Assembly: GCF_007826885.1 (NCBI RefSeq)
Contig: NZ_ML675586.1
Location: 1 to 64,000, forward strand
DNA: 64,000 nucleotides
Direction: 5' to 3'
Origin: Candidatus Nitrosocosmicus arcticus
GTDB lineage: Archaea; Thermoproteota; Nitrososphaeria; Nitrososphaerales; Nitrososphaeraceae
Positions 15,593 through 40,465 of the stretch are shown one piece after another. Under the pieces are notes generated by a model that did not search any database, was not told where the DNA came from, and was given only the letters and a program-made list of their open reading frames with translations. Position 1 is the stretch's first letter, and each line of letters begins with the position of its first letter. The position numbers and the translations under genes are program-made.

Positions 15593-15846
15593 CACTATAA
15601 GTAATTATATAACGAGTTCCTATGAGTTAAAAGGATCGAGTAACTCTTGCAGCCTGTTCGATCTGATTAAAGAAATCAGAATTACTTATATTCGATGAGA
15701 AATGATTGTACCTAATTAACTAACTAGTTGAATATTAAACCCGAGTCAGATTATCCAATATGTACGGGTCATTTCACGTTAATTTGTAATCTATGCTTGA
15801 AAATACCGTGATTAATTAAAGCTCGGCAGTGACAGAAAAAATGGTG

Positions 15847-20094: not shown

Positions 20095-21144
20095 ATGAAG
20101 GCTGCAGTTTTTCGCGAGCATGATAAAGACCCCGCGAAGGTTGTAAAAATAGAAGATATCGAAGTTCCAAAGTTAAAACCTGACGAGGTCTTGATAAAGG
20201 TCGAAGCAGCTTCATACAATTATAATGACCTGTGGGCGATCTGGGGGAGACCAATTAAGGTTCCAATGCCCCATATTTCGGGAACAGATATTTCCGGTAC
20301 AGTTGTAGAATCAGGTGAACAAGTTACCTCTCTTGTAAAGGGAGACAGAGTGGTATCTCATGGTAACCTAAGTTGCAGGATTTGTAGCATGTGTACATCA
20401 GGTAGAGAATATGATTGTGAAAAAAGACTAGTATGGGGTTTTCAAACTGGTCCACTATGGGGAGGATATTGTCAGTATGCCCATTTACCAGAAGTCAATG
20501 TAACAAAGATAAACGACAATATATCATTTGAAGACGCAGCAGCGATCTCCATGGTAGGAATGACTTCTTGGCACATGTTAGTTGATAGAGCTCGAATAAA
20601 ACCAGGGCAGACAGTTTTGATAATGGGTGGAACAAGTGGTGTAGGAATGGTAGGCATTCAAATTGCAAAATTATACGATTGCACCGTCATCGCTAGTGCA
20701 GGCAACCAACAGAAAATGGACAAATGTTTAGAACTTGGCGCTGATTTTGTTGTTAACCATAGACAAGAAGACTGGTATAAGAAAGTAAGAGACATGACCC
20801 AAAAAAAGGGAGTTGATATTGTATTTGAACACATAGGAAAAACAGTGTTTCCACAAGAGGTATCTCTGTTAAAAATGGGAGGGACGTTGGTATCTACAGG
20901 AGCTACTACAGGATATGATTCTACAATAGATCTGAGGTATCTTTTCTTTAGAGGAATAAACATAGTAGGTGCAACGCAGGGTAATAAAGCAGAACTCCAG
21001 GAGGTTTTATTCTGGACTTCAAAAAAGAAAATTAAACCATTGATAAACGCCGTATTGCCCTTTAATGAAATGGTAAAAGGACATTTGATGATGGCAAACG
21101 GTGATCAGATAGGTAAGACCATCACGACGCCACAAAAACTTTGA
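20095..21144 (+). CDS. Zinc-type MDR alcohol dehydrogenase/quinone oxidoreductase
   Basis: 349-residue medium-chain reductase. Structural-zinc cysteines CRICSMCTSGREYDC are present. The Rossmann motif is IMGGTSGVGMVGIQIAKLY, followed by the NADP(H) region ASAGNQQKMDKCLELGADFV. The catalytic-zinc site of true alcohol dehydrogenases is not obvious: the N-terminal segment is SYNYNDLWAIWG rather than CxSDxH, as in enoyl/crotonyl-type reductases. So an enoyl-thioester or quinone reductase is more likely than an alcohol dehydrogenase. It starts behind a strong Shine-Dalgarno sequence, which is rare in this window, suggesting a leadered transcript. Confidence 0.85.
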   Translation: MKAAVFREHDKDPAKVVKIEDIEVPKLKPDEVLIKVEAASYNYNDLWAIWGRPIKVPMPHISGTDISGTVVESGEQVTSLVKGDRVVSHGNLSCRICSMCTSGREYDCEKRLVWGFQTGPLWGGYCQYAHLPEVNVTKINDNISFEDAAAISMVGMTSWHMLVDRARIKPGQTVLIMGGTSGVGMVGIQIAKLYDCTVIASAGNQQKMDKCLELGADFVVNHRQEDWYKKVRDMTQKKGVDIVFEHIGKTVFPQEVSLLKMGGTLVSTGATTGYDSTIDLRYLFFRGINIVGATQGNKAELQEVLFWTSKKKIKPLINAVLPFNEMVKGHLMMANGDQIGKTITTPQKL

Positions 21145-22498: not shown

Positions 22499-23029
22499 CT
22501 AGTAATCAACCACCGTAGTTTTATTCAACAAATTAGCCATTATGGCAGGGGATCCGATAATGGATCCAGCTATTATATCAGAATTATCATATCCTGCTAT
22601 TTTCAAGCATACTTCACAGATCACAACGTTTCCTCCATTATTTATAAAATCAGAAACATTTTTTGTCAAGGGTTCTAATCCCAGGTAATGATGAGGACTC
22701 TTTACGCCTATCTGCACACCCTCTATACTAAGCATCAACGTTACATTAAAACCCATTTTTAACATGGTTTGAGAATCCAAAATGGCAATAGTAGCCCTCC
22801 AGGGTTCATCACTGCTCAGATGGTAAACTAGTTTGGTTTTATTAACTTCTTGTGCAAATATAGAAGGCATAGAGAGTTTAGAAAAAGAATTCATATCGTT
22901 AAAAAAAATCACGCCAGTAGTTGTAAAAAAAGAGATCAGCAATCCAAAGATAAGAAGAATGGAAATAGATGAATTAAATTTGAATTTTATTGCACCTAGG
23001 TTGGTCTCAATCATATCACATATTATCAT
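22499..23029 (-). CDS. Membrane-anchored DsrE-family protein
   Basis: 176 residues. A hydrophobic signal-anchor lies at ~20-42 (SILLIFGLLISFFTTTGVIF). The DsrE-like domain follows: KTKLVYHLSSDEPWRATIAI, the central VTLMLSIEGVQIG, then NNGGNVVICEVCLKIAGYD. The CEVC pair sits where sulfur-carrying cysteines occur in the DsrE/DsrF/YchN fold. The role could be periplasmic-side sulfur or thiol handling. It is monocistronic; nearby genes give no pathway. Confidence 0.75.
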   Translation of the reverse strand: MIICDMIETNLGAIKFKFNSSISILLIFGLLISFFTTTGVIFFNDMNSFSKLSMPSIFAQEVNKTKLVYHLSSDEPWRATIAILDSQTMLKMGFNVTLMLSIEGVQIGVKSPHHYLGLEPLTKNVSDFINNGGNVVICEVCLKIAGYDNSDIIAGSIIGSPAIMANLLNKTTVVDY

Positions 23030-23375: not shown

Positions 23376-23822
23376 CTATTGCTGAGCTGCGGCGTTGCTT
23401 CCTGTATTTTCTTGGCTTTGAACATTAATGTTGTTACCAGAACCTACTGTATCTCCACCTGATACTACTTGGCTGTTTTGGTTAGAGGATTGAGATTGGC
23501 TGATGCTTTGTTCTGGAGAGTTTCCACCCTGTCCACCTTGTGCTAATGCGTTGTTTCCACTGTTAAACTGGTGTTGGAAACTAAGGTTGTTGCATGAGAG
23601 GAAAGTTGTTCCACCAGAAGCACACTGTGCATTTTGGTTTGATGATTGTGATTGATCTATAGACTGTTTTGCTTTATTTTTCTTGTTTTGTGTGGCTAGA
23701 GCATCATCTACGTTGAGCATTGGACTGACAGTTAGGGCTAGTGCTACTACTATTGCAATTGATACGACAAAGAGTTTCTTGTTTGTGTTTTTGTTTTTGT
23801 TTTGAACATTTGTTTTATTCAT
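23376..23822 (-). CDS. Secreted Q/N/S-rich repeat protein, copy 1
   Basis: 148 residues: basic start (MNKTNVQNKNKNTNKK), signal peptide core LFVVSIAIVVALALTVSP, then a Gln/Asn/Ser-rich exported part. Two ~43-residue repeats begin SIDQSQSSNQNAQ and SISQSQSSNQNSQ and end GNNALAQG and GSNAAAQQ. Regularly spaced Q, N, A and G recall curlin-type amyloid repeats; that is a resemblance, not proof. Two cysteines (CASGG, LSCNN) lie in repeat 1 only. The DNA is identical by eye to copy 2 at 37013-37459 over 508 bases, differing only in the last few codons. Confidence 0.8.
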   Translation of the reverse strand: MNKTNVQNKNKNTNKKLFVVSIAIVVALALTVSPMLNVDDALATQNKKNKAKQSIDQSQSSNQNAQCASGGTTFLSCNNLSFQHQFNSGNNALAQGGQGGNSPEQSISQSQSSNQNSQVVSGGDTVGSGNNINVQSQENTGSNAAAQQ

Positions 23823-23899
23823 ATCATTGATACTATAGAAAAAATATATTGGGATTGCTAACCAACTGCAATAGTCTAATATTCTAGCAGTTTTAGAAT
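23392..23899 (-). repeat. 508-bp direct repeat, copy 1
   Basis: Covers all but the last codons of the secreted-protein gene plus 77 bases of promoter. I found no mismatch by eye with 37029-37536. Homology stops at ttttagaat on the promoter side, where copy 2 continues with sequence also found in a third, decayed copy near 40440. That makes copy 2 the older locus and copy 1 the derived one. Confidence 0.85.
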
Positions 23900-24072
23900 A
23901 ATCAATATTATTTGGATTTACAATTGGTAAGGGGTTATGTTTTTCATCCTATTTGATTCTAATGAAATAAAGCAGTAACAGATTACCAAATTACATGGTA
24001 CAATTTGTATCAACTTATAATCAAGAAAATAGGAGAATAAAAAGTATAATGCAGACATTCTTTTGAATAAGT

Positions 24073-24987
24073 ATGTCTGAGGGGCCCGAGGTTAAAATTG
24101 CTGCAGACAAAATATGGAATGCGCTATCTGGTAAAAGAATAATTAATAATATTTTGTATAATAAAATGGACAAGGGATTTGAAGATAAAATAATCGGGTC
24201 CTCCACCGAATATGTCAAAACCTTCGGAAAGAACATTATCATAAAATTTTCTTCTGGGGTTTATCTAAGGAATCATATGATGATGTGGGGAAAATGGCGA
24301 ATTTACGACAGGACCGAATATGAAAATGGGACTGCAAAATCACCACCACGTTCCTCCTATGGGAAAATAAAACATAAGAACACAGATAAAATTCAAGTTA
24401 AGAGAGATGAAGTAACAGATGTGAGAAAGGATTCTCGGACTAGATTAACCATTATCACTTTGGATAAAGTTTTGGTTCAGTTTAATGGCCCCATATTGCA
24501 ATTTTCATTGAATGATCCTGCAACTATGGAACCTATTGTATCATTGGGTCCTGATGCATTGAGTTCTAATTATAATGCAGACAAAGTAATGGATATCATA
24601 AAATCTAAATCTAGAAATACTGACATGATAATCTCAAACGCCTTATTAGATCAGAAAATAGTCAGTGGAATCGGGAACAAGTATAAATCAGAAATTTTGT
24701 TCTTAAATAAAATCTATCCTTTTGAAAAAGTGACAACAATCTCTAAGGATGAATTGAAGAAACTCGCAATGGATATACCCAGAATATTGAAATATGGTTA
24801 TGAAAATAGCGGTAAAACAAGAAAGCCTAAAGATAAAGAAAAGATCTCCTGGGATATCACTCATTGGGTATTTAGAAGATCTGGAAAACCTTGTTGGATA
24901 TGCGGGACCAAAATTGTATCAGAAAGAAAATTAACAGCAAGGCCAACTTTTTGGTGTCCTAATTGTCAACCAATCAATGTCCATTAA
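24073..24987 (+). CDS. Fpg/Nei-family DNA glycosylase-like protein with Ser at the catalytic N-terminus
   Basis: 304-residue member of the formamidopyrimidine-DNA glycosylase/endonuclease VIII family, base-excision repair of oxidised bases. The start is MSEGPEV; family enzymes start MPEGPE or MPELPE and use Pro as the nucleophile after Met removal. Glu at position 3 is kept. The H2TH part reads LLDQKIVSGIGNKYKSEILF, and the zinc finger is CWICG...FWCPNCQ. The middle (HMMMWGKWRIYD) is typical. The Pro-to-Ser change (CCT to TCT, one base) may alter chemistry. It is convergent with the DNA ligase, 63 bases apart. Confidence 0.88.
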   Translation: MSEGPEVKIAADKIWNALSGKRIINNILYNKMDKGFEDKIIGSSTEYVKTFGKNIIIKFSSGVYLRNHMMMWGKWRIYDRTEYENGTAKSPPRSSYGKIKHKNTDKIQVKRDEVTDVRKDSRTRLTIITLDKVLVQFNGPILQFSLNDPATMEPIVSLGPDALSSNYNADKVMDIIKSKSRNTDMIISNALLDQKIVSGIGNKYKSEILFLNKIYPFEKVTTISKDELKKLAMDIPRILKYGYENSGKTRKPKDKEKISWDITHWVFRRSGKPCWICGTKIVSERKLTARPTFWCPNCQPINVH

Positions 24988-25049
24988 TATTGGCAGTTAT
25001 AAGCGCAAGGTCTTTTTAATTATATGAGTTGGATCATGCAGCATTAAAA

Positions 25050-26897
25050 CTATTTTTTGTATTCATTTTTATTTTTTATATGGAATTGATTTTGGTATAT
25101 TGCTTCAATTTTTTCTAATTCATCAATGTCTTTTAATTCTTTGTCATATCTGATATTTTTTATTCTAGGAAAACGCAAAGCATATCCGCTGCTGTGTCGG
25201 TTGCTTTTTTGAACGATATCAAAGGAAACTTCTAGAACAATTTCGGGTTTTACAATAATCCGGCTACCTTCATTCCTTATTATAATTGACCTCAATTTCT
25301 CAGTCATATAATCAATCTCTTTATTGGAAAGACCTGAATAGGCCTTACCGATTATTTTAAGGTCACCAAAAACATTATTCCCGTTTTTCGATCCTACTTT
25401 ATCATCATCAAGATTAGTGGTGTAATCTTTTACTGCCAGAGTATAATCGGAGAGGGTCCCTGCTCGTTTTCCATGACCATATTCAGCAATTACTACCACC
25501 GCGTCAATTGTATCTAACTCCTCCTTCAATTTTATCCAATATTTTCCTCTTTTGCCAGGATAATATTGCGATAAAGGATCTTTAAGGACCAACCCCTCAT
25601 GTCCTTCATCTCTACTTTTTCGAAATCCATGTGTTATTTCATCTACGGATGAAACGAACTTACTTTGAGCAATAGAAATCACAGAGTCTTTAAACAGAAA
25701 ATTTGCCAATAATCTCTTTCTAGATTTAAGAGCATCTTTGATTACCTGTCTTTGATCATAGAACATTATGTCATATACAATATAACAAATCGGTATTTCA
25801 GATAAAATGCTGTTTGTCATGCTTTTTCGTCTCAATCGTTTTTGTAGTTCTTGAAATGGCAAGGGCTTATCATTTTTGAAAGCTATTAGTTCACCATCCA
25901 AAATGAAGTTTATATCGTCACGATCTATATCACTGACATCACTTTTATCAAGATATACATTACGCTTTTTTTGACTTGTTTTTACTTTTTTTATTCGTAC
26001 CTGCAAGGCAGAATTAGTTAATTCTGGAAATGCATATGAAATATCAGCAAGATTTCGAGAGTAAAGTTTGCAAACTTTACCGAATTTGTGCAGTTGTAAT
26101 CTAATACCATCATATTTATATTCACAAAGCAGTGACCTGTCAAAATATTTGACAATCTCTTCTGCAGTAAACATGACATCTGCCAACATAAAACTCAGGG
26201 AGACAAATGGCTTAATCGTTACAAAGTTCAAAGTATCTCTTTTCGACAATAAAGCTACATTTGCGATATCACCTGACATCAGCATTGCCTCCCGAACTCT
26301 TTTGATATCTTTTTCAAATGCTTTTGCAATGGCTATTTCCATAAGGCCATCGTAAGAACCTATACGCATTTCATTTGATATTATTTTTATAAGATACTTA
26401 GCCTCCAAAGGTGAACATCTCATAAGTAATCCTTTTAAGATATTTTTTTTATCGTTGTTTGACCGTGGACCTCCAAGATTTGCTATTTTTTTAAACCGAT
26501 CATATATTTCATTTAAAGTTAGTTTTTCTTCCAGAGTTTCTACGCTATTGAATAGTGTTACTAACTTTTTTTTAGAAATTGCATACTCGGCTATGCTACC
26601 CATATCACCGCGTTCTAAATGAATCCGCATAATATCGGTCTCATTTAATCTAGAGATTTCTAATAGAGACTGTAGTATTGTTCTAAACCCTACATTTAGA
26701 TTATGAATTGATCCCCTTGGGAAAATCTTTCCAGACAAAAATAGAACCGCAATAGGCAGAGAATCTTCACCCAAGCCTGAAATATATTGTACGATTAAAT
26801 CGACTTTTTTATTCTTGCTTGTCGTAATCCGTATTGACTCACATGTCTCAACCAATGTAGAAAAATAAGATCCTTTGTGGTGAATATCATTGGTCAC
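25050..26897 (-). CDS. lig: ATP-dependent DNA ligase, archaeal type
   Basis: 615 residues, the usual size for archaeal replicative ligases that seal Okazaki fragments. N-terminal DNA-binding domain ~1-225. The nucleotidyl-transferase motif I is EYKYDGIRLQ with Lys261; motif III-like LDGELIAF, motif IV EGLVLKDP, motif V YWIKLKEELDT follow, then the OB domain with EVSFDIVQKSNRHSSGYALR and RFPRIK. All key motifs look intact. A second ligase domain exists in LigD in this window, so this one is presumably the housekeeping enzyme. Confidence 0.95.
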   Translation of the reverse strand: MTNDIHHKGSYFSTLVETCESIRITTSKNKKVDLIVQYISGLGEDSLPIAVLFLSGKIFPRGSIHNLNVGFRTILQSLLEISRLNETDIMRIHLERGDMGSIAEYAISKKKLVTLFNSVETLEEKLTLNEIYDRFKKIANLGGPRSNNDKKNILKGLLMRCSPLEAKYLIKIISNEMRIGSYDGLMEIAIAKAFEKDIKRVREAMLMSGDIANVALLSKRDTLNFVTIKPFVSLSFMLADVMFTAEEIVKYFDRSLLCEYKYDGIRLQLHKFGKVCKLYSRNLADISYAFPELTNSALQVRIKKVKTSQKKRNVYLDKSDVSDIDRDDINFILDGELIAFKNDKPLPFQELQKRLRRKSMTNSILSEIPICYIVYDIMFYDQRQVIKDALKSRKRLLANFLFKDSVISIAQSKFVSSVDEITHGFRKSRDEGHEGLVLKDPLSQYYPGKRGKYWIKLKEELDTIDAVVVIAEYGHGKRAGTLSDYTLAVKDYTTNLDDDKVGSKNGNNVFGDLKIIGKAYSGLSNKEIDYMTEKLRSIIIRNEGSRIIVKPEIVLEVSFDIVQKSNRHSSGYALRFPRIKNIRYDKELKDIDELEKIEAIYQNQFHIKNKNEYKK

Positions 26898-26997
26898 GTC
26901 AATCTCCCCCCAATCAAGCGTATGGATAGAGAATGTTCAGAAACGTGAGTACACTTTAAGAAAAATGCCCATGGGTAGAATATGAAAGGACGAATAA

Positions 26998-27108
26998 GTA
27001 ACAAATGTAGTGGAATTTCTTGAATCCCCTAAGGCTAGTTACTTAGCAGGAAGCACCGTTATAGTTGATGGAGGAATGACCCTCTATCCCTCGTTTTCTC
27101 TCGATTAA
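26998..27108 (+). pseudogene. C-terminal remnant of a short-chain dehydrogenase
   Basis: The frame reads VVEFLESPKASYLAGSTVIV followed by DGGMTLYPSFSLD and a stop. This is the classic C-terminus of glucose-1-dehydrogenase-like SDR enzymes (FLAS..ASY..G..I.VDGGMTLYP). A TAA precedes it in frame and no Rossmann or YxxxK part is found upstream, so only ~36 codons remain. The fragment lies between the divergent-facing starts and ends of the DNA ligase and dienelactone hydrolase genes. Confidence 0.75.
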
Positions 27109-27186
27109 AATCATAATTCCACCCATATTTTAAGATTCTATGTGACAGAATGAAAGATGGAAGATGGTATTGTCTTATCAGTCCCA

Positions 27187-28071
27187 CTAGCCTTGTAAAT
27201 ATTTACCTAAAAAGTCTAGAGTTTTCTTCCATGCGTCTGCAGTTTCCTTGGGAGCGTAGTTGTCATTGGAGGGGTTTGCAAAGGCGTGTCCAACATTAGG
27301 ATAAATGTAAATTTCATTTGTAATTCCTGTATCGTTCAAGATCTTTTGGAATTGCTTTACAGAGTCTACTGAAATTGATTGATCTTTTTCTCCAAATATT
27401 CCTAAAACAGGCCATGTTATGTTTGATATGGCCTGAGTATCGTTTGTCAATCTACCATAATAAATTACTGTAGCAGCAAGTGGATTATCTGCGCTATTTA
27501 GAGACAATTCTAGGGACTGCTGTCCCCCAAAGCACCATCCCAATGATGCTATTTTAGACGCATTAACATTATCAAGGGAGCCTAAATAGGTTACTGCACC
27601 CTTAAGATTTTCCAAAGCAACATTCGGGTTTTCCCTTATCACAGAAGTTAATTCTCTTGATCGATTTTGATCGGTAGTTACTTCACCATTAAAAAGATCC
27701 ACAGCTAATACAACATACCCATTTTTAGCAAGGATATTGGCTGATTCCTTTATGTAATCATTCAAGCCTTTATTTTCATGAATCATTACTATAGCAGGTA
27801 GTTTTTTCTCTGTTGTACCACTTTGGTTTAGAGAAGGATAGACCAAATATCCCGAAGAGTTCCCAAAATAACTAACTGTTTTATTTTCTATTGATTGAAT
27901 ATTTGTACCAGTAGAAGAATTATTGTCACGAAAACTCACCAGAGTCATAGCAGATAACCCCGTATTTTGTTGAGCATGGATATTCGGCGTAGACGTCATC
28001 AAGCAGGAAGAAAATATAAAAATTGCGAGTAAAGAAATTATAGTAGATTTTTTCATTAAAAATAAAGACAC
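27187..28071 (-). CDS. Exported dienelactone hydrolase-family protein
   Basis: 294-residue alpha/beta hydrolase with a signal peptide (IISLLAIFIFSSCLMTSTPN; the Cys could be a lipobox). The DLH nucleophile elbow is LGWCFGGQQS (Cys), the acid is in GEKDQSISVD, and the His in NVGHAFANPS. The oxyanion region IVMIHENKGLNDYIKESA is as in the family. It hydrolyses lactone or ester bonds outside the membrane; true dienelactone substrate is unlikely in an ammonia oxidiser. It is monocistronic. Confidence 0.88.
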   Translation of the reverse strand: MSLFLMKKSTIISLLAIFIFSSCLMTSTPNIHAQQNTGLSAMTLVSFRDNNSSTGTNIQSIENKTVSYFGNSSGYLVYPSLNQSGTTEKKLPAIVMIHENKGLNDYIKESANILAKNGYVVLAVDLFNGEVTTDQNRSRELTSVIRENPNVALENLKGAVTYLGSLDNVNASKIASLGWCFGGQQSLELSLNSADNPLAATVIYYGRLTNDTQAISNITWPVLGIFGEKDQSISVDSVKQFQKILNDTGITNEIYIYPNVGHAFANPSNDNYAPKETADAWKKTLDFLGKYLQG

Positions 28072-28853
28072 TTTATTGCTTTTAACTATTTTGAAAATCT
28101 ATCAATGTTTGAATGAGGTTGGAAAAATCTAATCCCTATTTATCATGTGGATTGATTACAATCAATCAGATATCATAATCAACAAGGTGTCAAATAAAAA
28201 AGGGGTTTGGATTTAAACCCGAGGTAAATAAGAGCTTAAAGTCCCAAAACTGCAATGACATGAGCTGATCTGATATCAAATGTCTAAGCAGACTAACATG
28301 TCAACGATTACTTTAGTGTTTACATTTATCTCACCTAATAATTGTAATTATGCTGTTACACTCCAATCTTGAATTACTAAAAATACACCTGCAAAATCAG
28401 TTACCTTAGTTCTAATGGAAATATGGACAATTATTCGGACTAGTGCACTAAAGCCAAAGAAAAGTTTATTATTTATATAAATAGTTTAATTATTTTTTGT
28501 TAGAATATTACTGAATATCCTATTTATACTAGGTTAGAAAGATTTTATCTATACGGCTAAAGTGTTCACTGAATCCGTATAGTCCAATAGAAATGAGGAT
28601 TAGGGGTTTATTGCCATAGACAATAACCTCATTTCTTGGTCTCCATGATTAGTTACTTTGATTTCGAGATCACAAATGTATCCAACAAACAGGACTCAAA
28701 CAGGGAGCATTCTTCGTCGTTTTGGTTTTATTTTCTTCCTTAATTAATATTACTTGAATCATATGTGTGAGAATTATTGTAGAAGGTGTCAATTCTTTTA
28801 TGGTTTTTCTTGTCAGATAATATCTAAATAACATAAATCATTTATGAAGCATT
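28072..28853. other. 780-base intergenic stretch
   Basis: AT-rich, with several short inverted repeats but no convincing gene. A 23-codon plus-strand frame near 28677 is too short to support. Confidence 0.4.
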
Positions 28854-28988
28854 TCACTTGATTAGAAAAAAATCACCACTTTTTAGATATTTCATTTGGG
28901 CATCATCTCCTCCATCGATAGAAATCATATTCATATGTCCAATCAGCATTAGCATCAGTTCAAAAATAGGTCTTTGAGGAATCTCCAT
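28854..28988 (-). CDS. Possible 44-residue protein
   Basis: Minus-strand frame MEIPQRPIFELMLMLIGHMN, then MISIDGGDDAQMKYLKSGDF and FLIK. GAGAGG precedes the ATG. The sequence has a helix-rich, well-mixed composition unlike random AT-rich translation. I do not recognise a family. It is flanked on both sides by gene-free sequence. Confidence 0.45.
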   Translation of the reverse strand: MEIPQRPIFELMLMLIGHMNMISIDGGDDAQMKYLKSGDFFLIK

Positions 28989-29337
28989 CCTCTCGTTTTA
29001 GTCAGCATTATAAAGATATAAAGATGCTTCAAGGTCAGGTGTATGTATGCATGCAAGCAATTTTCCTTATCGTGTTTATTTGTATCGTGGAATACTATAG
29101 TACATTCTTCGAATGTACAAAAATCTACTTAAGCTTATTTTTCTATTATACATATGTCCCTATGAATTAAAATAGGACACAGATATTGTAAATGTACTGT
29201 ACTCATCATAATAAAGATAGTATCTATCTATTACTATCTTTATTATTATATAGGTCATTTGTAGTAGGCAGTAATTTATGAAATATTAATCAAAATGACT
29301 AGTGATTATATGTTTTTCTAGTATTGATATCTCATTC
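28989..29337. other. Intergenic stretch before the TPP enzyme
   Basis: About 350 bases with an imperfect palindrome ATAGATAC...TATTACTATC-like region at 29218-29245 and the promoter of the TPP enzyme. No gene is supported. Confidence 0.4.
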
Positions 29338-31230
29338 ATGAGTGAATATCACGGTATGCATACTGCAGAAATAATTGCAGAAGCCCTAATTGATTGGGAC
29401 GTAAAAGTTATTTTTGGCATTCCTGGAGATGGAATTAACAGTTTCATTGAAGCTTTACGCAAGCGACAAGATAAGATTAGGTTTGTTTTAACAAGACATG
29501 AAGAAGCGGCAGCATTCATGGCTTGTGCCTATGCAAAATATACTGGAAAGATCGGAGCTTGTGTAGCTACTTCAGGGCCAGGTGCTATTCACCTTCTAAA
29601 TGGGTTGTATGATGCCAAATTAGATGGTGCCCCTGTAATAGCTATTACAGGGAGAACCTATTCTGATTTAATAGGGTCGGGTTATCAGCAAGACATTCAT
29701 CAATTGGAATTGTTTGCCGATGTATCTGTATATAATAATATGATAATTGCTCCTGAACAGGCAGAGATGGCTGTAGATATTGCATGCAGAACAGCACTTT
29801 CCCAAAGAGGTGTAAGTCATCTGACAATCCCCATTGATATCCAAGAAAAAAAATTAGCAGGCGATTATTCAAAACATAAAGTACCTGGCCATACTTCCGA
29901 TTTCTATGTTAAGATCAATACTGAACCAGATAATCAGTTATTAAAAAAAGCTGCAGATATCATAAATTTGGGAAATAAGGTAGTAATTTTGACTGGTCAA
30001 GGGGCTCTGAATGCGGGAGAACAAGTAATACAAATCTCGGAAAAGATAAAAGCCCCTATTATCAAGGCATTATTGGGCAAAGCTGTTGTTCCTGATGAAC
30101 ACCTTAATTGTTTAGGGGGTATTGGAATGCTAGGTACTTCTCCTAGTGTAGAGGCAATGGATGAAGCAGATACGTTAATTATGATAGGAACATCATTTCC
30201 TTATATCGAATACCTTCCAAAACCGGGACAGGCTCGAGGAATTCAAATAGATATAAAGCCAGAAAGAATTGGATTACGATATCCGGTCGAAGTTGGCCTG
30301 GTAGGCGACTCTAACATAACACTCTTAAAATTACTTCATCTATTAGAGGAGAAACAAACTGAAAGTGTCCAATCGAATTTTCTGAAGTCTAAACAAGAGG
30401 AAATGAAAAAATGGAATGATCTACTGCTATCACAAAGCAATTCAGGGAAGAGTTTAGAGAGCATGAACAACGGCAAAAAAAATAATGATGGTAACGACAT
30501 CAACAAAAATCTTGTCAAACCTCAAGCAATTGCTTCAGCAGTATCTAGATTTCTAGATGACGAAGCTATAGTTTCTGTTGATAGTGGAACAAATACAATA
30601 TTTGCGGCTCGTTTCATAAAAATGAGAAAGGGCATGAAATTCTCTCTATCAGGAACACTCGCCTCTATGGCTTGTGGTCTACCTTATGCTATAGCAGCCA
30701 AGATTGCATATCCAGAAAGACAATCGGTAGCCTTTGTTGGTGATGGAGGATTTACAATGCTTATGGGGGAGTTTGCAACGGCGGTTCAATATAACCTTCC
30801 AATTAAAGTAATTATTCTCAAGAATAATGTCTTAGGAATGATCAGGTGGGAACAAATGGCCTTTTTAGGGAATCCAGAGTTTGGGGTAGAGTTTTCCCCC
30901 ATAGATTTTGCAAAATTTGCTGAAAACTGTGGAGGCAAAGGCTATAAAATAAGAGATCCAAACGAAATAGAACAAGTTATGGAATTAGCTATGACAAAAG
31001 ACAACGAAAAGCCTGTAATAGTAGAAGCGTATGTTGATCCATTTGAGCCACCAATGCCGCCAAAAATGGAACCAGAATTTGTTAAAAACATCGTCGAATC
31101 ATTTGCAAAAGGACAGCCTTATACAAAGAGAATAGGCCTAACCTTATTTAGAAATCAAATTAGCACTTCATTAAAAGATGTAAAAAACAAAGTAATAGAA
31201 ACTAGGAACATTATCCAAAAAAACGTCTAG
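29338..31230 (+). CDS. Thiamine-diphosphate enzyme, pyruvate oxidase/acetolactate synthase-like
   Basis: 631 residues with the three-domain POX/AHAS layout. N-terminal Pyr domain: VIFGIPGDGINSFIEAL with the catalytic Glu in LTRHEEAAAFMACAYAK. Middle FAD/adenine-type domain near 200-330 (VVILTGQGALNAG). PP domain ~400-570 with the ThDP motif GDGGFTMLMGEF...LKNN. The C-terminal PFEPPMPPKMEPEF is typical of pyruvate dehydrogenase (quinone)/oxidase-like proteins, and no AHAS small subunit gene is near. A GTG start at 29302 would add 12 poorly matching residues; the ATG at 29338 (MSEYHGMHTAEII) is preferred. Confidence 0.87.
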   Translation: MSEYHGMHTAEIIAEALIDWDVKVIFGIPGDGINSFIEALRKRQDKIRFVLTRHEEAAAFMACAYAKYTGKIGACVATSGPGAIHLLNGLYDAKLDGAPVIAITGRTYSDLIGSGYQQDIHQLELFADVSVYNNMIIAPEQAEMAVDIACRTALSQRGVSHLTIPIDIQEKKLAGDYSKHKVPGHTSDFYVKINTEPDNQLLKKAADIINLGNKVVILTGQGALNAGEQVIQISEKIKAPIIKALLGKAVVPDEHLNCLGGIGMLGTSPSVEAMDEADTLIMIGTSFPYIEYLPKPGQARGIQIDIKPERIGLRYPVEVGLVGDSNITLLKLLHLLEEKQTESVQSNFLKSKQEEMKKWNDLLLSQSNSGKSLESMNNGKKNNDGNDINKNLVKPQAIASAVSRFLDDEAIVSVDSGTNTIFAARFIKMRKGMKFSLSGTLASMACGLPYAIAAKIAYPERQSVAFVGDGGFTMLMGEFATAVQYNLPIKVIILKNNVLGMIRWEQMAFLGNPEFGVEFSPIDFAKFAENCGGKGYKIRDPNEIEQVMELAMTKDNEKPVIVEAYVDPFEPPMPPKMEPEFVKNIVESFAKGQPYTKRIGLTLFRNQISTSLKDVKNKVIETRNIIQKNV

Positions 31231-31576
31231 ATTTCAATTTTATTACTATTATTAACTTTGCATAGAAGGAAACATGATATATGTGGTTACTCTCATAGAG
31301 TTATTCAAGTTCATATCACGACTTACCGATCCTAACTTTAAACTTTAACTAAAATCTTCCAAAATGATTATCAAAAAGTCGACTCTTAATAAGGAATAGT
31401 TTATCGTCACGACAACTTACTTTGATATTTGTTTTACTTTTTTTGACGGGACTCTAGTGAGAATTCAGAGATAAAAAACTTCCTGTTTACTATATTTGTT
31501 TTTGTTTTTGAAAAATTTTTCCTAATATGGAGGTTACAATGATTAATTGTTCCTGATACATTTACTAAATTTGATA
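31231..31576. other. Intergenic stretch, no gene seen
   Basis: About 345 AT-rich bases between convergent units. No supported feature. Confidence 0.4.
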
Positions 31577-31760
31577 TTAGTATACTTTTTTAGAATCAGA
31601 ATAGATGGTTTCAAATTCTTTTAGTGCAGCAGACCAATTTTTAGCAAGTTCATCAAATGATTCTACAAACATATCGATTGGGTGATTCTTCGGGAAGATT
31701 TTGTATTTGTTCAAGTAGTTTTTGTTGTTCTTCATAAGTAAGGTCTTTGAGAACTTTCAT
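31577..31760 (-). pseudogene. Small helical protein gene with a one-base frameshift
   Basis: The minus-strand ATG at 31760 opens MKVLKDLTYEEQQKLLEQIQ then NLPEESPN and runs into TGA at 31653. In the +1 frame the sequence continues naturally as IDMFVESFDELAKNWSAALK then EFETIYSDSKKVY to TAA at 31577. Dropping one C from the CCC in TCACCCAATCG joins them (EESPIDMFVESF) into a ~60-residue helical protein. No family recognised. Confidence 0.6.
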
Positions 31761-32216
31761 CGCAAGTTTTACTGTAAATAAATTATTTTATAAAACCTAG
31801 TAAACATAATTATCATATATTGTTAATCTGTTTAAAGATCTCATCACATAACAGATTCGGTAAGTATTCAAGGATCAATCTATGATTCCATAAAAATTGA
31901 ATATCCATTATGAAAGAAATATTTATATGAATAGGAGTGGTTACTTATACGATCCAGTATTACTTGCCAGTGAGAACAATTAATATAACCAATGTGTATT
32001 TGGGGATGGGTGATTATTCATATTGATATTCAAGATCATTTCAGTCTTTGAGAAGATTATGATTTAATATTCTAAAATCCCAAATCTACTTCAAGAAAAA
32101 GAGTTCTTTTATACATCAACTACTAGGATTATTGATATTTGTCGGTAATTGTCATTAATTGTTAGCTAATATCTTCACATCATAAAATTTATTAAGATTA
32201 TCAATAAAAATAGCAA
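31761..32216. other. Intergenic stretch, no gene seen
   Basis: About 455 AT-rich bases between the divergent small gene and the double-cupin gene. It must contain two promoters. Confidence 0.4.
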
Positions 32217-33264
32217 ATGAACGATCAGAAATCTTCTTCTATCATTTTGATTTGGATGGGACAAAACCTCAGTTCTCTATGCCACATGGTAGTAGGACGG
32301 TAATGGATGCAGATAACTTTCCAGTCTTAAAAGGGATTGGAGCAGTCTTGCTTCGCCTAGAAAAAGGGGCGGTTCGTGAACCCCACTGGCATCCTAATGC
32401 ATCTGAGTTAAATTACTGTATTTCAGGAAAAGCTAAAATGACTATTTATAGTAATAATGCTCGTAAAGATACAATTATGATAAATCCTGGGCAACTGACT
32501 TTTGTGCCTACAGGATGCTGGCATGATATTGAAAATATTGGTGAAGCAGAGTTGAAAATAGTTATTGTTTATGATAACGAAAGGTTTGAAGATTTGGGGA
32601 TTTCGGGGTCGGTTGGGTCTTTACCCGTACGGATCTTGAATAGTATCTTTGGAATAAAATCCCCTGGATTATTTGATCAACTAGGTGACATATCATCTCA
32701 GGATGTAGTATTTGGTAATAAAGCAATTGATATTTCTAAAAGTAATAGTAACAACGAGATCGAAGCCTCAAATTCACATACTATGAATCTTAGTGGTACC
32801 ACTCCCCAGGTCCAAACTCCGGGCGGAACTGCTGTTTTGGGAAGTTTACCCTATTTCCAATACTCAAAGGCTTATCAGTATTTCTCCTGAATCTGAGGCC
32901 AAAAGGAATAGTGGAACCCCACACCCATCCCAATGCTGCAGAGTTGAACTATGTCATAGAAGGAAAAGTCCGATTTACCGTATATAGTCCTAACAAGGAT
33001 ATAGAGACATCCGAAATTGGCAAAGGTCAAGTCTTTTTTGTTCCTGCCGGATATTTTCATTATCTGGAGAATTCAGATGATGTAAATAGCGGTACTGTAG
33101 CTTCCTTTTTCGGTAATGAAAATCCAGAGTTTATAGGACTCGTTGGTGGCCTCAGCTCATATTCAGACGAGGTACTTGGAGCTGTATTTAATACAGACCA
33201 GAAATTCTTTAGTAATCTTCCACGTCTAGTGAAAAATGTGTTAATTGCTTCTGGTACCGATTAA
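32217..33264 (+). pseudogene. Double-cupin (oxalate decarboxylase-like) gene with frameshift
   Basis: Two cupin domains of an oxalate decarboxylase/bicupin type. Domain 1 (frame from TTG 32252): EPHWHPNASELNYCISGKA and CWHDIEN. Domain 2 (ATG-like frame from ~32870): VEPHTHPNAAELNYVIEGK and AGYFHYLEN. Each keeps the HxH...E...H manganese site. Domain 1 stops at TGA 32888, but one base added in GGCTT near 32870 gives SKALSVFLLNLRPKGIVEPH, joining the two. At the 5' end, ATG 32217 (MNDQKSS) is one base out of phase with FYHFDLDGTKPQF, a family-like start, at a TCTTCTTC run. So one or two single-base shifts break a ~345-residue gene. Confidence 0.8.
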
Positions 33265-33295
33265 GACCTCGTCGAAAAGGCCCAAGGAATTAAAC

Positions 33296-33326
33296 GATAA
33301 AAAATCTATTTTTTATCTTCGTTTTT
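33296..33326 (+). terminator. Terminator-like hairpin after the double cupin
   Basis: GATAAAAAAT and ATTTTTTATC form a 10-bp stem with a two-base loop, followed by TTCGTTTTTT. It lies 32 bases after the stop codon. Confidence 0.55.
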
Positions 33327-33727
33327 TAGTAATTTCTAATTTCAATCCTGATTACAATTGTATCTGATATCATCCACATGATATACTATTGAGGTACTTT
33401 AGGTGAATTTTGGGCCAAGTCCGGGGATATTAGAGATACATCAATTGAGTATTACTAAACAAAAATGCGAAGGCGGTCACTACTGTTGCCATTATATTTG
33501 GTTTAATTATCTCTAGTCAATCATATTGACATATCTAATTTGGTTGTTGCCAATAATCAAAAAAAATCCATTACAAGGATATATAGCAAGAAATACCATC
33601 CATCCATCCATCCATCCATAGCCCCCCTTTGGAATAAGCTGATATTTGAAACGAACAACTAAATTCTACTGGTATAGGTATATTATCAAGAAAGTATAAA
33701 CGACTACTTTTATCAATAGGATGTAAA
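33327..33727. other. Intergenic stretch with a CCAT microsatellite
   Basis: Six perfect CCAT units at 33596-33619 are followed by a C6 run. The rest is AT-rich sequence with the promoter of the SRPBCC gene. Confidence 0.6.
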
Positions 33728-34168
33728 TTGAAAGAAATTCTTACAGAGATTGATATTAATGCATCTGCTAGTAAGACATGGGAAGTACTAACAGATTTTA
33801 GGAACTTTCCACAATGGAACCCTTTCATCTGTCAAATAGATGGAACCCCGAATGTTGGCACAAAGCTCAAAATATATCTTCATACCTCAGGTGGAAAGAA
33901 TAGAACTTATCAACCAACAGTAACTAAGGTGGAATCAAATCGTGAGCTCCGTTGGTATGGAAAATCATTCATACCCGGATTTTTCAATGGGGAACATATT
34001 TTTATAATTGACTCCATGGAAACAAATCGCGTGCACTTTGTACATAAAGAAATCTTTACAGGGATTCTTGTAAGTGTCATAGGAAATAGTTTGGATAAAG
34101 ATATGTATCAGAGTTTTATAGAAATGAATGATGCATTAAAACAAAGGGTCGAACAGATGGCCATTTGA
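33728..34168 (+). CDS. SRPBCC-fold (polyketide cyclase/dehydrase-like) protein
   Basis: 146-residue START/Bet-v1-like protein. It shows the typical opening ILTEIDINASASKTWEVLTD, the loop FRNFPQWNPFICQIDG, the strand ELRWYGKSFIPGFFNGEH and a long C-terminal helix DMYQSFIEMNDALKQRVEQM. Such proteins bind hydrophobic ligands in a deep cavity; the ligand is unknown. The start is TTG at 33728. It stands alone and convergent to the VOC protein. Confidence 0.85.
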   Translation: MKEILTEIDINASASKTWEVLTDFRNFPQWNPFICQIDGTPNVGTKLKIYLHTSGGKNRTYQPTVTKVESNRELRWYGKSFIPGFFNGEHIFIIDSMETNRVHFVHKEIFTGILVSVIGNSLDKDMYQSFIEMNDALKQRVEQMAI

Positions 34169-34337
34169 CCGACGATTTGTTAATTTCAAACTTTATCCCC
34201 TATTAACTATAAACGTCAATCAATCAGTTTCCCCCTACTTTGGTTGTAAATCCTACAATGGTAACTATATTCAATTATTCTAAATTAAAGATAAAAAAGA
34301 AATAGAATTATCCAATATTTCATAGCCAAAATAGATG

Positions 34338-34877
34338 TTATGTTTTCTCATAAGCTTGAATTAAAGTTGGTATGTCGAGCTTTTGCATTTGAAGCATTGC
34401 TTTCATCACCCTTTGCGATTTTATAGGATCTTTGTCTTGTATCATTTTGGGTAGGACCGCAGGTACAATTTGCCAAGAAACTCCATATTTGTCCTTGAGC
34501 CAACCACATTGTTGTGCATTTTTGTCGCCATTTTCCGACAGTTTCTCCCAATAATAGTCCAGTTCTTTTTGAGTGTCGCAGAGCACTTGAAATGAAATGG
34601 CTTCGTTGAATTTGAACACTGGACCACCATTGAGAGCCACAAATTTTTGACTTTCTATTTCAAAATCTACCGTCATTACAGCACCTTCTTCCATTCCATG
34701 AATCTCGTATCCTTCTTTTCCATATCGGGTAACTTGATTGATTTTTGAGTTTTTAAAAACTGTGACATAAAAATTTGCGGCTTCCTCAGCTTGATTATCG
34801 AACCAAAGAAATGGAATAATTTTTTGTAGATGCCTTGGTTTCGCTTCACCTACTCTTGATATATTTGATTCATTCAT
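34338..34877 (-). CDS. PhnB/VOC-superfamily protein
   Basis: 179 residues of the PhnB-like (3-demethylubiquinone-9 methyltransferase-like) branch of the vicinal oxygen chelate superfamily. It has KIIPFLWFDNQAEEAANFYV, then SKINQVTRYG, then VMTVDFEIESQKFVALNGGP and the second half FQVLCDTQKELDYYWEKLSE with WLKDKYGVSWQIVP. The frame extends to 34922, but the ATG at 34877 lies ~25 bases behind a TTTTATATTTT box and begins the family-like sequence, so a leaderless start is preferred. Catalytic role unknown. Confidence 0.87.
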   Translation of the reverse strand: MNESNISRVGEAKPRHLQKIIPFLWFDNQAEEAANFYVTVFKNSKINQVTRYGKEGYEIHGMEEGAVMTVDFEIESQKFVALNGGPVFKFNEAISFQVLCDTQKELDYYWEKLSENGDKNAQQCGWLKDKYGVSWQIVPAVLPKMIQDKDPIKSQRVMKAMLQMQKLDIPTLIQAYEKT

Positions 34878-35233
34878 GAAGAAAGATACAATTTGAAAAT
34901 ATAAAAGTGTGCAAGGGATCAAAAGTATAGCAGTTACAATATATCAAAGATAAAAAAAAGAGGGGTTTTACTTGAATACAATTTGTCTTCGATAATAACG
35001 CAAGACTCGTTCTAAAAACATCGTCAAGGGATGGGAAAATATTCTTTTAAACCCGCAAACTAGCTAATTTTGCACCCAGCCTCTTCAACCTTATCTCAAT
35101 AAAACTGGACTATGTGGTTGATGATTTTTCTTTCATTCTAAAATTCGCATTCTATCTCCCAATTATGCTATATGACACTGAATTCATTTTCATTATAGTA
35201 AATAATTAATTAGCTTGATTGTGACTAATCTGT

Positions 35234-35536
35234 ATGTCTGACAACCCCATGCGGATGCGGGAATTTCTGGATAACAATTCGCCTTTTAGTTATTTTTTCT
35301 TTGAAGGTTTAACACATGAATTAATAATCGATTTTGACGAGGAGATACTAGTACTTCGTCCATCTAATGATGATAGAAAATCCCATCGTAATGAATTTGA
35401 AAAATCAGGTGGTAACCTTTTGTATCTTAATTTTTTGCATGATGCAAAAGAAAAGTCGATTACGATAACTGATCAAAATGGTATAGAGATTATTCACTTT
35501 AACTATCTCAGTTATTTTAAACATGCAAGGTTCTAA
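35234..35536 (+). CDS. Hypothetical 100-residue protein
   Basis: No family recognised. It starts MSDNPMRMREFLDNNSPFSY and has an alternating strand-loop composition (FEGLTHELIIDFDEEILVLR; EKSITITDQNGIEIIHFNYL). There is no signal peptide or metal motif. It stands alone between two minus-strand genes with 300 bases on each side. Confidence 0.55.
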   Translation: MSDNPMRMREFLDNNSPFSYFFFEGLTHELIIDFDEEILVLRPSNDDRKSHRNEFEKSGGNLLYLNFLHDAKEKSITITDQNGIEIIHFNYLSYFKHARF

Positions 35537-35867
35537 TCAATGTCCAACTATACCTATTGTACAAATCCATATGGTCGTCCTCACCCATAAGAAACCTGGT
35601 TCGCATGGTAGTATAATTTTACTACGTTGTGACTTTCGAATGTCGACTATTCATAGTCGAGAATTGACCATCCTATATATAACTCCGGAACAGAAAGAGC
35701 AAAATATTTACTTAGATAAACAGAATGGAAAAAATACACTTAGGTAACATATAGATTTTAAAAAATCATCAATATAGGTAAATATTTAGTATAAAGATAA
35801 TTTGATCAAACATTTCATAGTAGATAATATAAAAAACCTTCGAAAAATTTTATAAATAGGGTTTATC
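35537..35867. other. Intergenic stretch, no gene seen
   Basis: About 330 bases between convergent genes. A frame at 35523-35747 overlaps the upstream gene and looks random. Confidence 0.4.
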
Positions 35868-36764
35868 TCATAACAAGCCTGCGACTATGCATGATACAAA
35901 TTTTCTTGCAATAGAACCGCTAGAATCTAGATTTGGATTATAGATAGTGATGGTCATTCCAATCGCCTTTTGAGACGAAATGAGGATTTTTAGAATGTAA
36001 GATAGCTCGGAAAATTCTAACCCACCATTACCCAACCTATAATCGACCGCTGGCATTATTCTGTCGTTCAATACGTCAGCATCTAAATGAATCCAAAAAC
36101 CAGACAAATCCTCACTCGTTAGGAGATTTGAAACCGTCAGAGAGGCAGCCTTGATTATTCCTAAATTTCGTACATCAGAAAGATCCAATACCTGCATACC
36201 GGTATCTCTCACATTGTGACTTCCGTAACTCGTTGATTGTTCAGCATCACGATATCCAAAAACCACGATGTCATTTTCTAGCATAAGTGGTTTTAGACCG
36301 TCAATATTAGAAAGAATATCCGGTCCTCTGCCTGACACAAAAGCTAATTCCATATCAGCAACTTCTCCAGTGGTTGAGGCTTGAGGTTGATAAAAATCAG
36401 AATGCCCGTCAACAAAAAATAACCCATATCTTCCAATTCTTCTCAATCCTAAAAGGACGCCAATGAGGATGCTGCAATCGCCTCCTAATACAATCGGAAA
36501 ATTCTTTTTTTCCATTTCAATATTTACTATTTTAGAAAGGTCTTTTGAAAATAACGCAATAGAAGTACCATTCAACAAATGTGTGATAGGGTCTCGTGTT
36601 GGATCGTAATGCATTAATGGTTGAACACGGCCTGCAAAAGTTGCATTTAGTCTATCCATTAATCCTGCTTTCTTCAATGCTTCCGGAAGATCTTGTACAC
36701 CCGTATTTCGTAATCCAAGTATTGAAGGGGCATCAATTATTACATATCTTGGTCCTTCTACCAA
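35868..36764 (-). CDS. Arginase/agmatinase-family protein
   Basis: 298-residue ureohydrolase-fold protein. Motif 1 is VLGGDCSILIG (residues 93-102; usual GGDHS), motif 2 is FFVDGHSDF (usual DAHxD), and motif 3 is WIHLDADVLND (usual SxDxDxxDP). The first-motif His is Cys and the third lacks the final Pro, but the second His and Asp residues remain, so a dinuclear metal site is still conceivable. Close relatives with GGDCS exist in bacteria and archaea without assigned substrate. Agmatine, arginine or formimidoyl-glutamate hydrolysis would be guesses. Confidence 0.82.
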   Translation of the reverse strand: MVEGPRYVIIDAPSILGLRNTGVQDLPEALKKAGLMDRLNATFAGRVQPLMHYDPTRDPITHLLNGTSIALFSKDLSKIVNIEMEKKNFPIVLGGDCSILIGVLLGLRRIGRYGLFFVDGHSDFYQPQASTTGEVADMELAFVSGRGPDILSNIDGLKPLMLENDIVVFGYRDAEQSTSYGSHNVRDTGMQVLDLSDVRNLGIIKAASLTVSNLLTSEDLSGFWIHLDADVLNDRIMPAVDYRLGNGGLEFSELSYILKILISSQKAIGMTITIYNPNLDSSGSIARKFVSCIVAGLL

Positions 36765-37012
36765 CCTAGATCATAAACCACGAAGTTATTTTTTAGGTTA
36801 TGTATTGTTTTTGATCAAATAGGAACAGAACTAGTTTATGGTAAATCTTTGAGAAAAGATATGTCAACACATCTAAAGGAAAATTAATAAGAATTTTACA
36901 GAGTTGAGAGAAAATTCTCAGGGATATTAGATTTACAGACGTTCAATAGGATTACATCTGAGGCATCATATGACTAAATTGTGAAAAAATAGATGAAGAA
37001 GTAGTATTAGAT
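36765..37012. other. Short intergenic stretch
   Basis: About 250 bases, containing the arginase-family promoter and the 3' flank of secreted-protein copy 2. No further feature. Confidence 0.4.
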
Positions 37013-37459
37013 TTACCCTTGTGCTAATGCGTTGCTTCCTGTATTTTCTTGGCTTTGAACATTAATGTTGTTACCAGAACCTACTGTATCTCCACCTGAT
37101 ACTACTTGGCTGTTTTGGTTAGAGGATTGAGATTGGCTGATGCTTTGTTCTGGAGAGTTTCCACCCTGTCCACCTTGTGCTAATGCGTTGTTTCCACTGT
37201 TAAACTGGTGTTGGAAACTAAGGTTGTTGCATGAGAGGAAAGTTGTTCCACCAGAAGCACACTGTGCATTTTGGTTTGATGATTGTGATTGATCTATAGA
37301 CTGTTTTGCTTTATTTTTCTTGTTTTGTGTGGCTAGAGCATCATCTACGTTGAGCATTGGACTGACAGTTAGGGCTAGTGCTACTACTATTGCAATTGAT
37401 ACGACAAAGAGTTTCTTGTTTGTGTTTTTGTTTTTGTTTTGAACATTTGTTTTATTCAT
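37013..37459 (-). CDS. Secreted Q/N/S-rich repeat protein, copy 2
   Basis: Same 148-residue protein as copy 1 except for the end, GSNALAQG instead of GSNAAAQQ. The ALAQG end matches the end of internal repeat 1 (GNNALAQG), so this copy keeps the full repeat form. The open frame runs up to 37558, but the identical upstream region in copy 1 cannot be translated that way, so the ATG at 37459 is the start. A TATA-like element (ATATATTTTTTCTATAG on the minus strand) lies ~20-35 bases upstream. Export and a surface-fibre role are inference from the signal peptide and repeats. Confidence 0.82.
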   Translation of the reverse strand: MNKTNVQNKNKNTNKKLFVVSIAIVVALALTVSPMLNVDDALATQNKKNKAKQSIDQSQSSNQNAQCASGGTTFLSCNNLSFQHQFNSGNNALAQGGQGGNSPEQSISQSQSSNQNSQVVSGGDTVGSGNNINVQSQENTGSNALAQG

Positions 37460-37536
37460 ATCATTGATACTATAGAAAAAATATATTGGGATTGCTAACC
37501 AACTGCAATAGTCTAATATTCTAGCAGTTTTAGAAT
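37029..37536 (-). repeat. 508-bp direct repeat, copy 2
   Basis: Partner of 23392-23899, same orientation, 13.6 kb apart. Beyond 37536 the sequence TAGACTGGAAAGAG continues in a form also present next to the decayed third copy (40428-40440) but not next to copy 1. Confidence 0.85.
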
Positions 37537-37967
37537 TAGACTGGAAAGAGTATATCAACAGGCAGACAATGAATCAAATTTTTTAATTTGCGGACAATTT
37601 CTATAACTTAGATTGACAAATCATTGTCAAACAATTTTTTTGTTATGTGCTATTGCCATTCATAGAAATATAATTAATCTAATAGTTTTACACTAACCAA
37701 AATTAAGGAAAACACCAGAATATCGTGATGTTACACGCAGATACTAATAAAATATAATCTACAAATTATGTGCATTCATCAGATTCATGAGTTTCCCCCT
37801 CAAATTAATGAGTTACATGATATTCGGATTGTTCAGTCTTTAGACAAGAATATAGAGACAGTATCTCATTTTGCTTGATGACATGGATGTTTTATTTAAC
37901 TCATAGTTCGCTTTAATGGCATAATTCTTAATTTTCCAAAACTTTTAAGAAGCACAATGTCCCAAAA
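37537..37967. other. Intergenic stretch, no gene seen
   Basis: About 430 AT-rich bases between secreted-protein copy 2 and a small zinc protein. No other feature is supported. Confidence 0.4.
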
Positions 37968-40162: not shown

Positions 40163-40465
40163 TCAAAAAATCAAGAATGATGGCAGGGTTTTCATCAACA
40201 TCTTATTATGATTCGTTGTAAGTAGAGAATATAATATAGCTGTATTCTTTTGGAGTAGATTACTTAGAATAGACCTCTTTGTTTTTGTCATCATGGTCGT
40301 ACTCAATTCCATTGTTTTGGTTTTGGTTTTGAAAGTGAGTTTATTCATACCCTTGATATAATAGAAAAAATATATCGGGATTGCTACTTGATTTCAATAC
40401 TTAATATTCTAGCAGATTCAGGATTGGACTGGAAAGAGATATTTGACTAGGCATATAACAAAAGT
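40163..40465 (-). pseudogene. Decayed third copy of the Q/N/S-rich secreted-protein locus
   Basis: The region from ~40311 to 40465 aligns with the promoter and first codons of copies 1 and 2: the run TTTTGGTTTTGG, start region, ATAGAAAAAATATAT, GGGATTGCTA, TTAATATTCTAGCAG and GACTGGAAAGAG are shared with substitutions. The frame begins MNKLTFKTKTKT but loses the signal peptide core and all repeats. It resembles a truncated, mutated paralogue whose promoter region is better kept than its coding part. Confidence 0.65.

Follow-up and report, generated by a model that had tools for sequence, protein, structure and literature searches.

How can two loci that lie 13.6 kb apart in one archaeal genome, between unrelated flanks, carry the same gene and promoter without a single difference? 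The question is raised by the window analysed here, a 64,000-nucleotide stretch of Candidatus (Ca.) Nitrosocosmicus arcticus (contig NZ_ML675586.1, positions 1 to 64,000), in which the gene for a small secreted-looking protein rich in glutamine, asparagine and serine (Q/N/S-rich) occurs twice. Pairwise alignment of the two segments, with 300 bp of flank supplied per side, returned 508 identical columns out of 508 and no gaps, silent sites included, bearing out the original prediction, which had judged the segments identical base for base by eye. We conclude that the identical copies very probably result from ectopic (interlocus) gene conversion between two old paralogues, as part of the concerted evolution of a gene family. 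The elements of the pair are listed below, where G000 denotes the genome of the window and G001–G014 denote 14 congeners (Ca. Nitrosocosmicus; 15 genus genomes together).

23392–23899, minus strand: homogenised tract, copy A, comprising the promoter region and all but the last codons; 508/508 identical to 37029–37536
37029–37536, minus strand: homogenised tract, copy B; 508/508 identical to copy A, 388/398 identical to the same slot in G014
23376–23822, minus strand: 148-aa secreted-looking Q/N/S-rich protein of the 23-kb slot (open reading frame, ORF; nothing at curated cut-offs in Pfam and NCBIfam)
37013–37459, minus strand: 148-aa secreted-looking Q/N/S-rich protein of the 37-kb slot, start read at MNKTNV
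23376–23391, minus strand: slot-specific tail, AAAQQ stop; shared with G014 and G011 in this slot, where G013 and G012 have ALAQS
37013–37028, minus strand: slot-specific tail, ALAQG stop; shared with G014 and G011 in this slot

The tract runs, on the minus strand, from 77 bases 5′ of the ATG to the fifth-last codon of the 148-aa protein, and identity ends exactly at these borders, abruptly on both sides. Consistent with the original prediction, only the last codons of the two genes are unlike, with AAAQQ* at 23 kb and ALAQG* at 37 kb. Specifically, the synonymous divergence (dS) between the two full genes is 0.043, all of which comes from the tail codons, while the tract itself is without differences. 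The pair is the sole direct repeat of at least 60 bp found in the window using exact 20-base seeds, and a chance origin of the identity is therefore excluded. The 181-aa ORF listed at 37013–37558 begins at a TTG that lies 5′ of the promoter element and otherwise corresponds to the 148-aa protein.

The genes around both slots can be traced in the congeners. They had been described as decayed, which does not hold: six of the seven neighbouring ORFs scanned reach the Pfam cut-off. The landmarks used are as follows.

22499–23029, minus strand: DsrE-like gene, border of the 23-kb slot (Pfam PF02635, E 4.3e-5; matches in 11 of 15 genomes)
24073–24987, plus strand: gene for a DNA glycosylase of the Fpg/Nei type, bordering the 23-kb slot on the opposite side (Pfam H2TH and Fapy_DNA_glyco; 10 of 15 genomes, some broken)
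35868–36764, minus strand: arginase-family gene, border of the 37-kb slot (Pfam PF00491; close matches in G014, G013, G012 and G011)
13006–13327, no strand: position of an additional copy in collinear G013 (the 38-kb slot of that genome), with none here (from collinearity)
40313–40424, minus strand: relic, the decayed promoter and start of a further copy (80% to tract bases 395–508; also in the syntenic G014 contig C240)

The 23-kb slot is occupied by a family gene in 9 of the 14 congeners, one of these genes being decayed. Both flanks match in G013, G012 and G007, one flank matches in G002 and G006, two different G003 genes have one flank each, and the slot falls on contig ends in G011 (both flanks; C97 and C287) and G014 (one flank; C249). 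The 37-kb slot is occupied in 4 of the 14, namely in G013 and G012 with both flanks, in G014 (C143, C240) and in G011 (C380). Over both slots, the window is broadly collinear with G013 contig 1, with gaps; aligned to G013 and G012, the sequence of the 23-kb slot is conserved on both sides of the gene and contains no inserted block. Since the syntenic slot is occupied and lacks an inserted block relative to G013 and G012, the 23-kb copy did not arise through insertion at a vacant target; an empty 23-kb slot was observed in none of the 14 congeners, the five without an occupied slot lacking demonstrated synteny there. Furthermore, the duplication predates the species split, as both slots are common to G013, G012 and, on contig ends, G014 and G011. 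The original prediction had called the 37-kb locus ancestral on account of its flank likeness to the relic. The likeness is real, short (about 20–35 bp past the tract, seen via G014 contig C240) and fits an old local duplication, while the claim of ancestry is wrong as stated, the 23-kb slot being more widely shared (9/14 versus 4/14).

Two observations concern the border genes of the 23-kb slot. In G009, the decayed family gene stands beside the Fpg gene (L166 3540–3700, C21), and its other side carries the equivalent of window positions 19996–21144 in place of the DsrE-like gene. The Fpg/Nei-type gene is broken or fragmentary in the draft relatives G012 (C123:14989–15898), G001 (C315) and G008 (C105), and has no match in G004, G005, G006, G010 and G014.

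Although both slots are old, the copies of G000, G013 and G012 in them sort by species. The two G000 copies differ from each other at 0 of 508 sites, whereas they differ from their same-slot orthologues at 60/503 (G013) and 63/503 (G012) sites in the 23-kb slot and at 61/502 (G013) and 57/494 (G012) sites in the 37-kb slot, so that the paralogues are more alike than the orthologues. A tree was built from 46 of the 51 family rows, which were taken among the matches listed of the family search; G003_L100, G005_L102, G002_L093, G006_L083 and G011_L085 were left out as decayed, offset or duplicate, and slot labels were set from flanks before tree building. In this tree, the two G000 copies fall together, joined by the 37-kb copy of G014. 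In G013, the 23-, 37- and 38-kb copies cluster along with one 17-kb-slot copy, the 23- and 37-kb copies pairing, and the 23-, 37- and 38-kb copies of G012 make up a group of their own. Approximately unbiased (AU) tests reject a 37-kb-slot clade (p-AU 1.77e-39) and a 23-kb-slot clade (p-AU 1.25e-9), the latter for five of the six rows so labelled (G006_L083 left out) and with the two one-flank G003 rows labelled otherwise. Clustering within a genome also holds for 6/7 G003 rows, 3/5 G005 rows and 3/7 G007 rows; same-genome clusters thus occur in G000, G003, G005, G007, G012 and G013, and for the clustered copies, matching of both flanks supports orthologous slots in G000, G012 and G013 only. 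At the divergence of G014 (13/500 sites), finding 0 differences in 508 sites has a chance of 1.5e-6 if sites are independent, and the last conversion is probably younger than the split of G000 and G014. Of the two explanations first offered for the identity, ongoing gene conversion is supported by the old slots, the species-wise grouping and the excess of orthologue over paralogue differences; a very recent copy is contradicted by the family gene standing between matching flanks in the 23-kb slot of G013, G012 and G007.

The tails follow the slot rather than the species in three genomes, as G000, G014 and G011 carry AAAQQ* at 23 kb and ALAQG* at 37 kb, slot by slot. For G011, contig C380 permits comparison of just the 55 bp that precede the tail; these do not vary between the two slots of that genome and depart from G000 at five sites. 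Because this stretch is shared between slots and differs from G000 while the tails are private, the same tract border recurs in a second lineage, G011 besides G000. In G014, the contig of the 23-kb slot starts 9 bases ahead of the tail, as would be expected of a contig break at the repeat, though this is no proof of one.

Near-identical copies are found in other genomes as well, among them genomes assembled as a single contig. In G005, L066 equals L067 in the tract though the two lie 1.35 Mb apart, with about 970 bp upstream also shared at 99.5%, and L067 and L068 have 531 bp in common at 99.4%. The corresponding blocks are 538 bp at 98.1% in G013 (L059/L060) and 567 bp at 97.4% in G007 (L081a/b), both single-contig genomes. 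Among the matches listed at 93% or more, the block starts 71–84 bases before the ATG in 16 of 19 same-genome pairs; in the remaining three it starts at 109, about 970 and 366 bases. As expected of near-identical copies, draft contigs start or end in family genes (G014 C143, C249 and C240; G011 C97, C287, C380, C83 and C52). Copy counts in Nitrosocosmicus drafts are accordingly unreliable, as near-identical copies may also be merged. On the 22-kb draft contig C88 of G011 (L185), copies at 707–1208 and 15448–15949 accompany 4.8 kb of identical sequence, reflecting either a large recent duplication or an assembly effect.

We infer the following course of events. A break or stalled fork in one copy would be repaired from the other copy, and homologous recombination would copy the 508-bp block, from the promoter to the fifth-last codon, over the other gene. 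Copying would stop where homology between the slots ends, such that each slot retains its own flanks and last codons. The outcome would be a non-crossover, as crossing-over between direct repeats 13.6 kb apart would lose the intervening DNA; that DNA, with a DNA ligase gene, is still present, which fits such an outcome. The direction 37 to 23 kb is weakly favoured for the last conversion, making 37 kb the likelier donor, since the 37-kb slot of G014 resembles the G000 tract (10/398 sites differ, with 3/102 in the upstream part).

Several observations weigh against this account or limit its reach. First, the donor is not fixed, as the G014 assembly lacks the corresponding stretch of its 23-kb slot, and an outside donor is possible. 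Second, the alignment of G000 with G013 and G012 contains 38 columns split by lineage with both slots agreeing and 0 columns fixed by slot, a count that is partly built in, the zero being nearly forced by the identical G000 copies. Third, the signal between G012 and G013 is weak: over three slots, 3 columns are lineage-fixed, as against 6 columns that go with the 23-kb slot, 1 with the 38-kb slot and 0 with the 37-kb slot, and the 23- and 37-kb paralogues are 96.2% (G013) and 96.8% (G012) alike, against 94.8% and 94.0% for orthologues. Homogenisation in these two genomes is accordingly partial. Fourth, some copies group by slot, namely the C2:17-kb-slot copies of G000 and G014 (100/100) and, weakly, G012_L077 and G013_L089, while the 23-kb-slot genes of G007 and G002 stand apart in the tree from their own genomes' other copies. 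Fifth, the tails do not follow the slot in G013, G012, G007 and G002. The 23-kb-slot gene ends in ALAQS* in G013 (like its 37-kb gene), runs on past ALAQS in G012, and ends in ALGQS in G007, ALAQS in G002 and AAAQQ plus two more residues in G006; in the line of G012 and G013, the tail may also have been overwritten. Finally, if G000 is strain Kfb, the exact identity may in part be an effect of short-read SPAdes assembly.

Of the alternatives to conversion, a mobile cassette of promoter plus ORF that spreads identical copies to new slots fares best, and we still regard it as unlikely. It would account for the recurrent block start before the ATG in the same-genome pairs and for slots that are unlike between species, such as the 38-kb copy of collinear G013 that is absent from G000. 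It leaves the slot-following tails of three genomes unexplained, however, and the window contains no inverted repeat of at least 60 bp and no transposase among the nine proteins scanned. Flank searches revealed no clean empty site either, both for two further G013 copies (flanks searched in eight genomes, with listings read without aligning every place) and for the G013 38-kb copy (one flank searched in three genomes). One search for the further copies points to rearranged flanks; the 38-kb slot region of G000 is too diverged for a junction to show, and the G011 contig there ends before the gene.

An assembly artefact, in which two near-identical copies were collapsed to one consensus or misjoined, is somewhat less probable still. 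SPAdes can merge near-identical copies, and several draft contigs of G014 and G011 do end in the family gene. The genome of Ca. N. arcticus Kfb, which G000 would represent, is such an assembly: the accessible portion of its published description gives 22 scaffolds, 98% and 2.7 Mb from Illumina and IonTorrent reads assembled with SPAdes (PMC6657660), and the assembly used here has 22 contigs, 2,644,860 bases and 98.28% completeness. Yet the same portion of that description gives an insert size of 900 bp, which exceeds the length of the repeat (PMC6657660), the flanks of each copy show synteny in relatives, the two copies have different tails, and near-identical same-genome copies also occur in single-contig G005, G007 and G013.

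A very recent duplication, with the 37-kb locus copied and inserted at 23 kb, would readily produce sharp identity between unrelated flanks and would suit the short stretch of flank in which the 37-kb copy resembles the 40.3-kb relic. We nevertheless consider it highly improbable: the 23-kb slot is already filled between matching flanks in G013, G012 and G007, a gene with the AAAQQ tail occupies it in G014 and G011, and the version that supposes an empty target is refuted by the slot alignment with G013 and G012. Strong purifying selection on the nucleotide sequence, as a force holding both copies equal, deserves next to no credence, because the ratio of nonsynonymous to synonymous divergence (dN/dS) of 0.12–0.15 between the G000 genes and their G013 orthologues does speak for a constrained protein, but the orthologues differ at 11.5–12.5% of tract sites, with dS of 0.45–0.48, which refutes it.

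Ectopic conversion would copy a block that includes putative regulatory sequence. An upstream element stands at the start of each tract, followed by a TATA-like box.

23875–23898, minus strand: conserved upstream element, TTCTA-N7-TAGAA plus ATATTAGA (2 sites in the window, mean 0.00 in shuffles)
37512–37535, minus strand: same upstream element, 37-kb copy, identical to the 23-kb element
23839–23850, minus strand: TATA-like box, 17–28 bases before the ATG (from sequence; identical at 37 kb)

The position of the TATA-like box would suggest a leaderless mRNA. Allowing up to three mismatches, the upstream element has 8 sites in G000 and 0 for the reversed control, and it is present in 12 of the 15 genus genomes, the single G004 match equalling its control count. 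Five of the eight G000 sites lie before family genes, one belongs to the relic and two lie near other secreted-looking genes. The latter two (L103 and L104; G000 C2:166108 and C9:88280) place the element outside the family, where it precedes an 84-aa secreted-looking protein (63 bp at 95%) and is close to a secreted-looking ORF of 384 aa. This is a hint of a small regulon or of promoters with a shared history.

The family itself has matches in 17 of 61 genomes among the matches listed, comprising all 15 of the genus (G000 included), one further genome from its taxonomic family and another from its order, and is thus concentrated in Nitrosocosmicus; the closest named relatives of the window genome are mostly Ca. 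Nitrosocosmicus metagenome-assembled genomes, with one genome labelled Nitrosopumilus. The N-terminus of the protein has a hydrophobic stretch that looks by eye like a signal peptide (helix 4–30 in a low-confidence model); the remainder consists of two Q/N/S-rich halves, which can be aligned with one another. The 148-aa protein has no Pfam or NCBIfam match at curated cut-offs, the NCBIfam matches lying far below, and a sequence search of the PDB with a 12-row family alignment returned 0 matches at E up to 1. AlphaFold2 on the same alignment gave a mean pLDDT (predicted local distance difference test) of 40.4 and a pTM (predicted template modelling score) of 0.15, and the model is unusable for reading a fold. 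From their dN/dS values the family genes look constrained and working; the ratio against G014 is 0.42, from few changes. Broken copies do occur (G012_L101, G005_L102, G014_L064 and the relic at 40313–40424). A longer family member (L177; G000 C14:38997–40070) has matches spaced 180 bp apart, so that the family has long multi-repeat forms besides the two-repeat form. The protein would be a secreted surface or matrix protein that is useful in several copies.

One protein likeness is to curli-type amyloid repeats (Pfam Curlin), which we take to share secretion, Q/N/S/G-richness and a G-N-x-A-x-A-Q-like spacing. Unlike curli, the 148-aa protein has no Pfam match to Curlin listed at E up to 1, and its structure prediction is uninformative. 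Cassettes for antigenic variation likewise involve conversion among paralogues of a secreted protein. In contrast to such cassettes, most family copies read here have their own start and an open frame, and the Nitrosocosmicus pattern is one of homogenisation under purifying selection. Concerted evolution of prokaryotic duplicates is itself well documented: the accessible text of a survey of recurrent cases, with recurrence defined as at least five species, names tuf and the archaeal mtrA, mtmB/C, mtbB and others, all seven archaeal genes being from methanogens (PMC6053082). As in the cases described there, where conversion is named as the driver, paralogues at separate loci are closer than orthologues, at silent sites too and in several species (PMC6053082). 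Unlike those cases, as far as the available text describes them, the present one comes from an ammonia-oxidising genus and affects a secreted repeat-like protein; the tract takes in the promoter and, in three genomes, stops short of last codons that are private to the slot, and slot orthology is shown for fewer species (PMC6053082). Intermolecular gene conversion in polyploid Haloferax volcanii is, in the accessible parts of its description, likewise an archaeal non-reciprocal copying that equalises sequences, but it acts between chromosome copies, whereas in Nitrosocosmicus it would act between different loci (PMC8223754, PMC11276520). No paper was found that joins Nitrosocosmicus with gene conversion, and, judged by title, the literature on Thaumarchaeota and concerted evolution holds none on such a case, nor that on ammonia-oxidizing archaea and amyloid any on this secreted-protein family. 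Within the literature searched, both the present case and the gene family appear undescribed; the process of gene conversion is known.

The two slots provide a natural record of ectopic gene conversion in ammonia-oxidising archaea, in which both borders are visible and several species and slots can be compared, within a family of secreted proteins that is under constraint and has no name in Pfam or NCBIfam. Tentatively, and with more doubt than confidence, we suggest that frequent conversion may act on the expression unit in its entirety, from regulatory element and promoter to signal peptide and repeats, and keep the family uniform within a species while each slot keeps its private last codons. 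The copies might then provide a dosage reservoir, their product being a surface or matrix protein of which a species-specific version sweeps through the slots.

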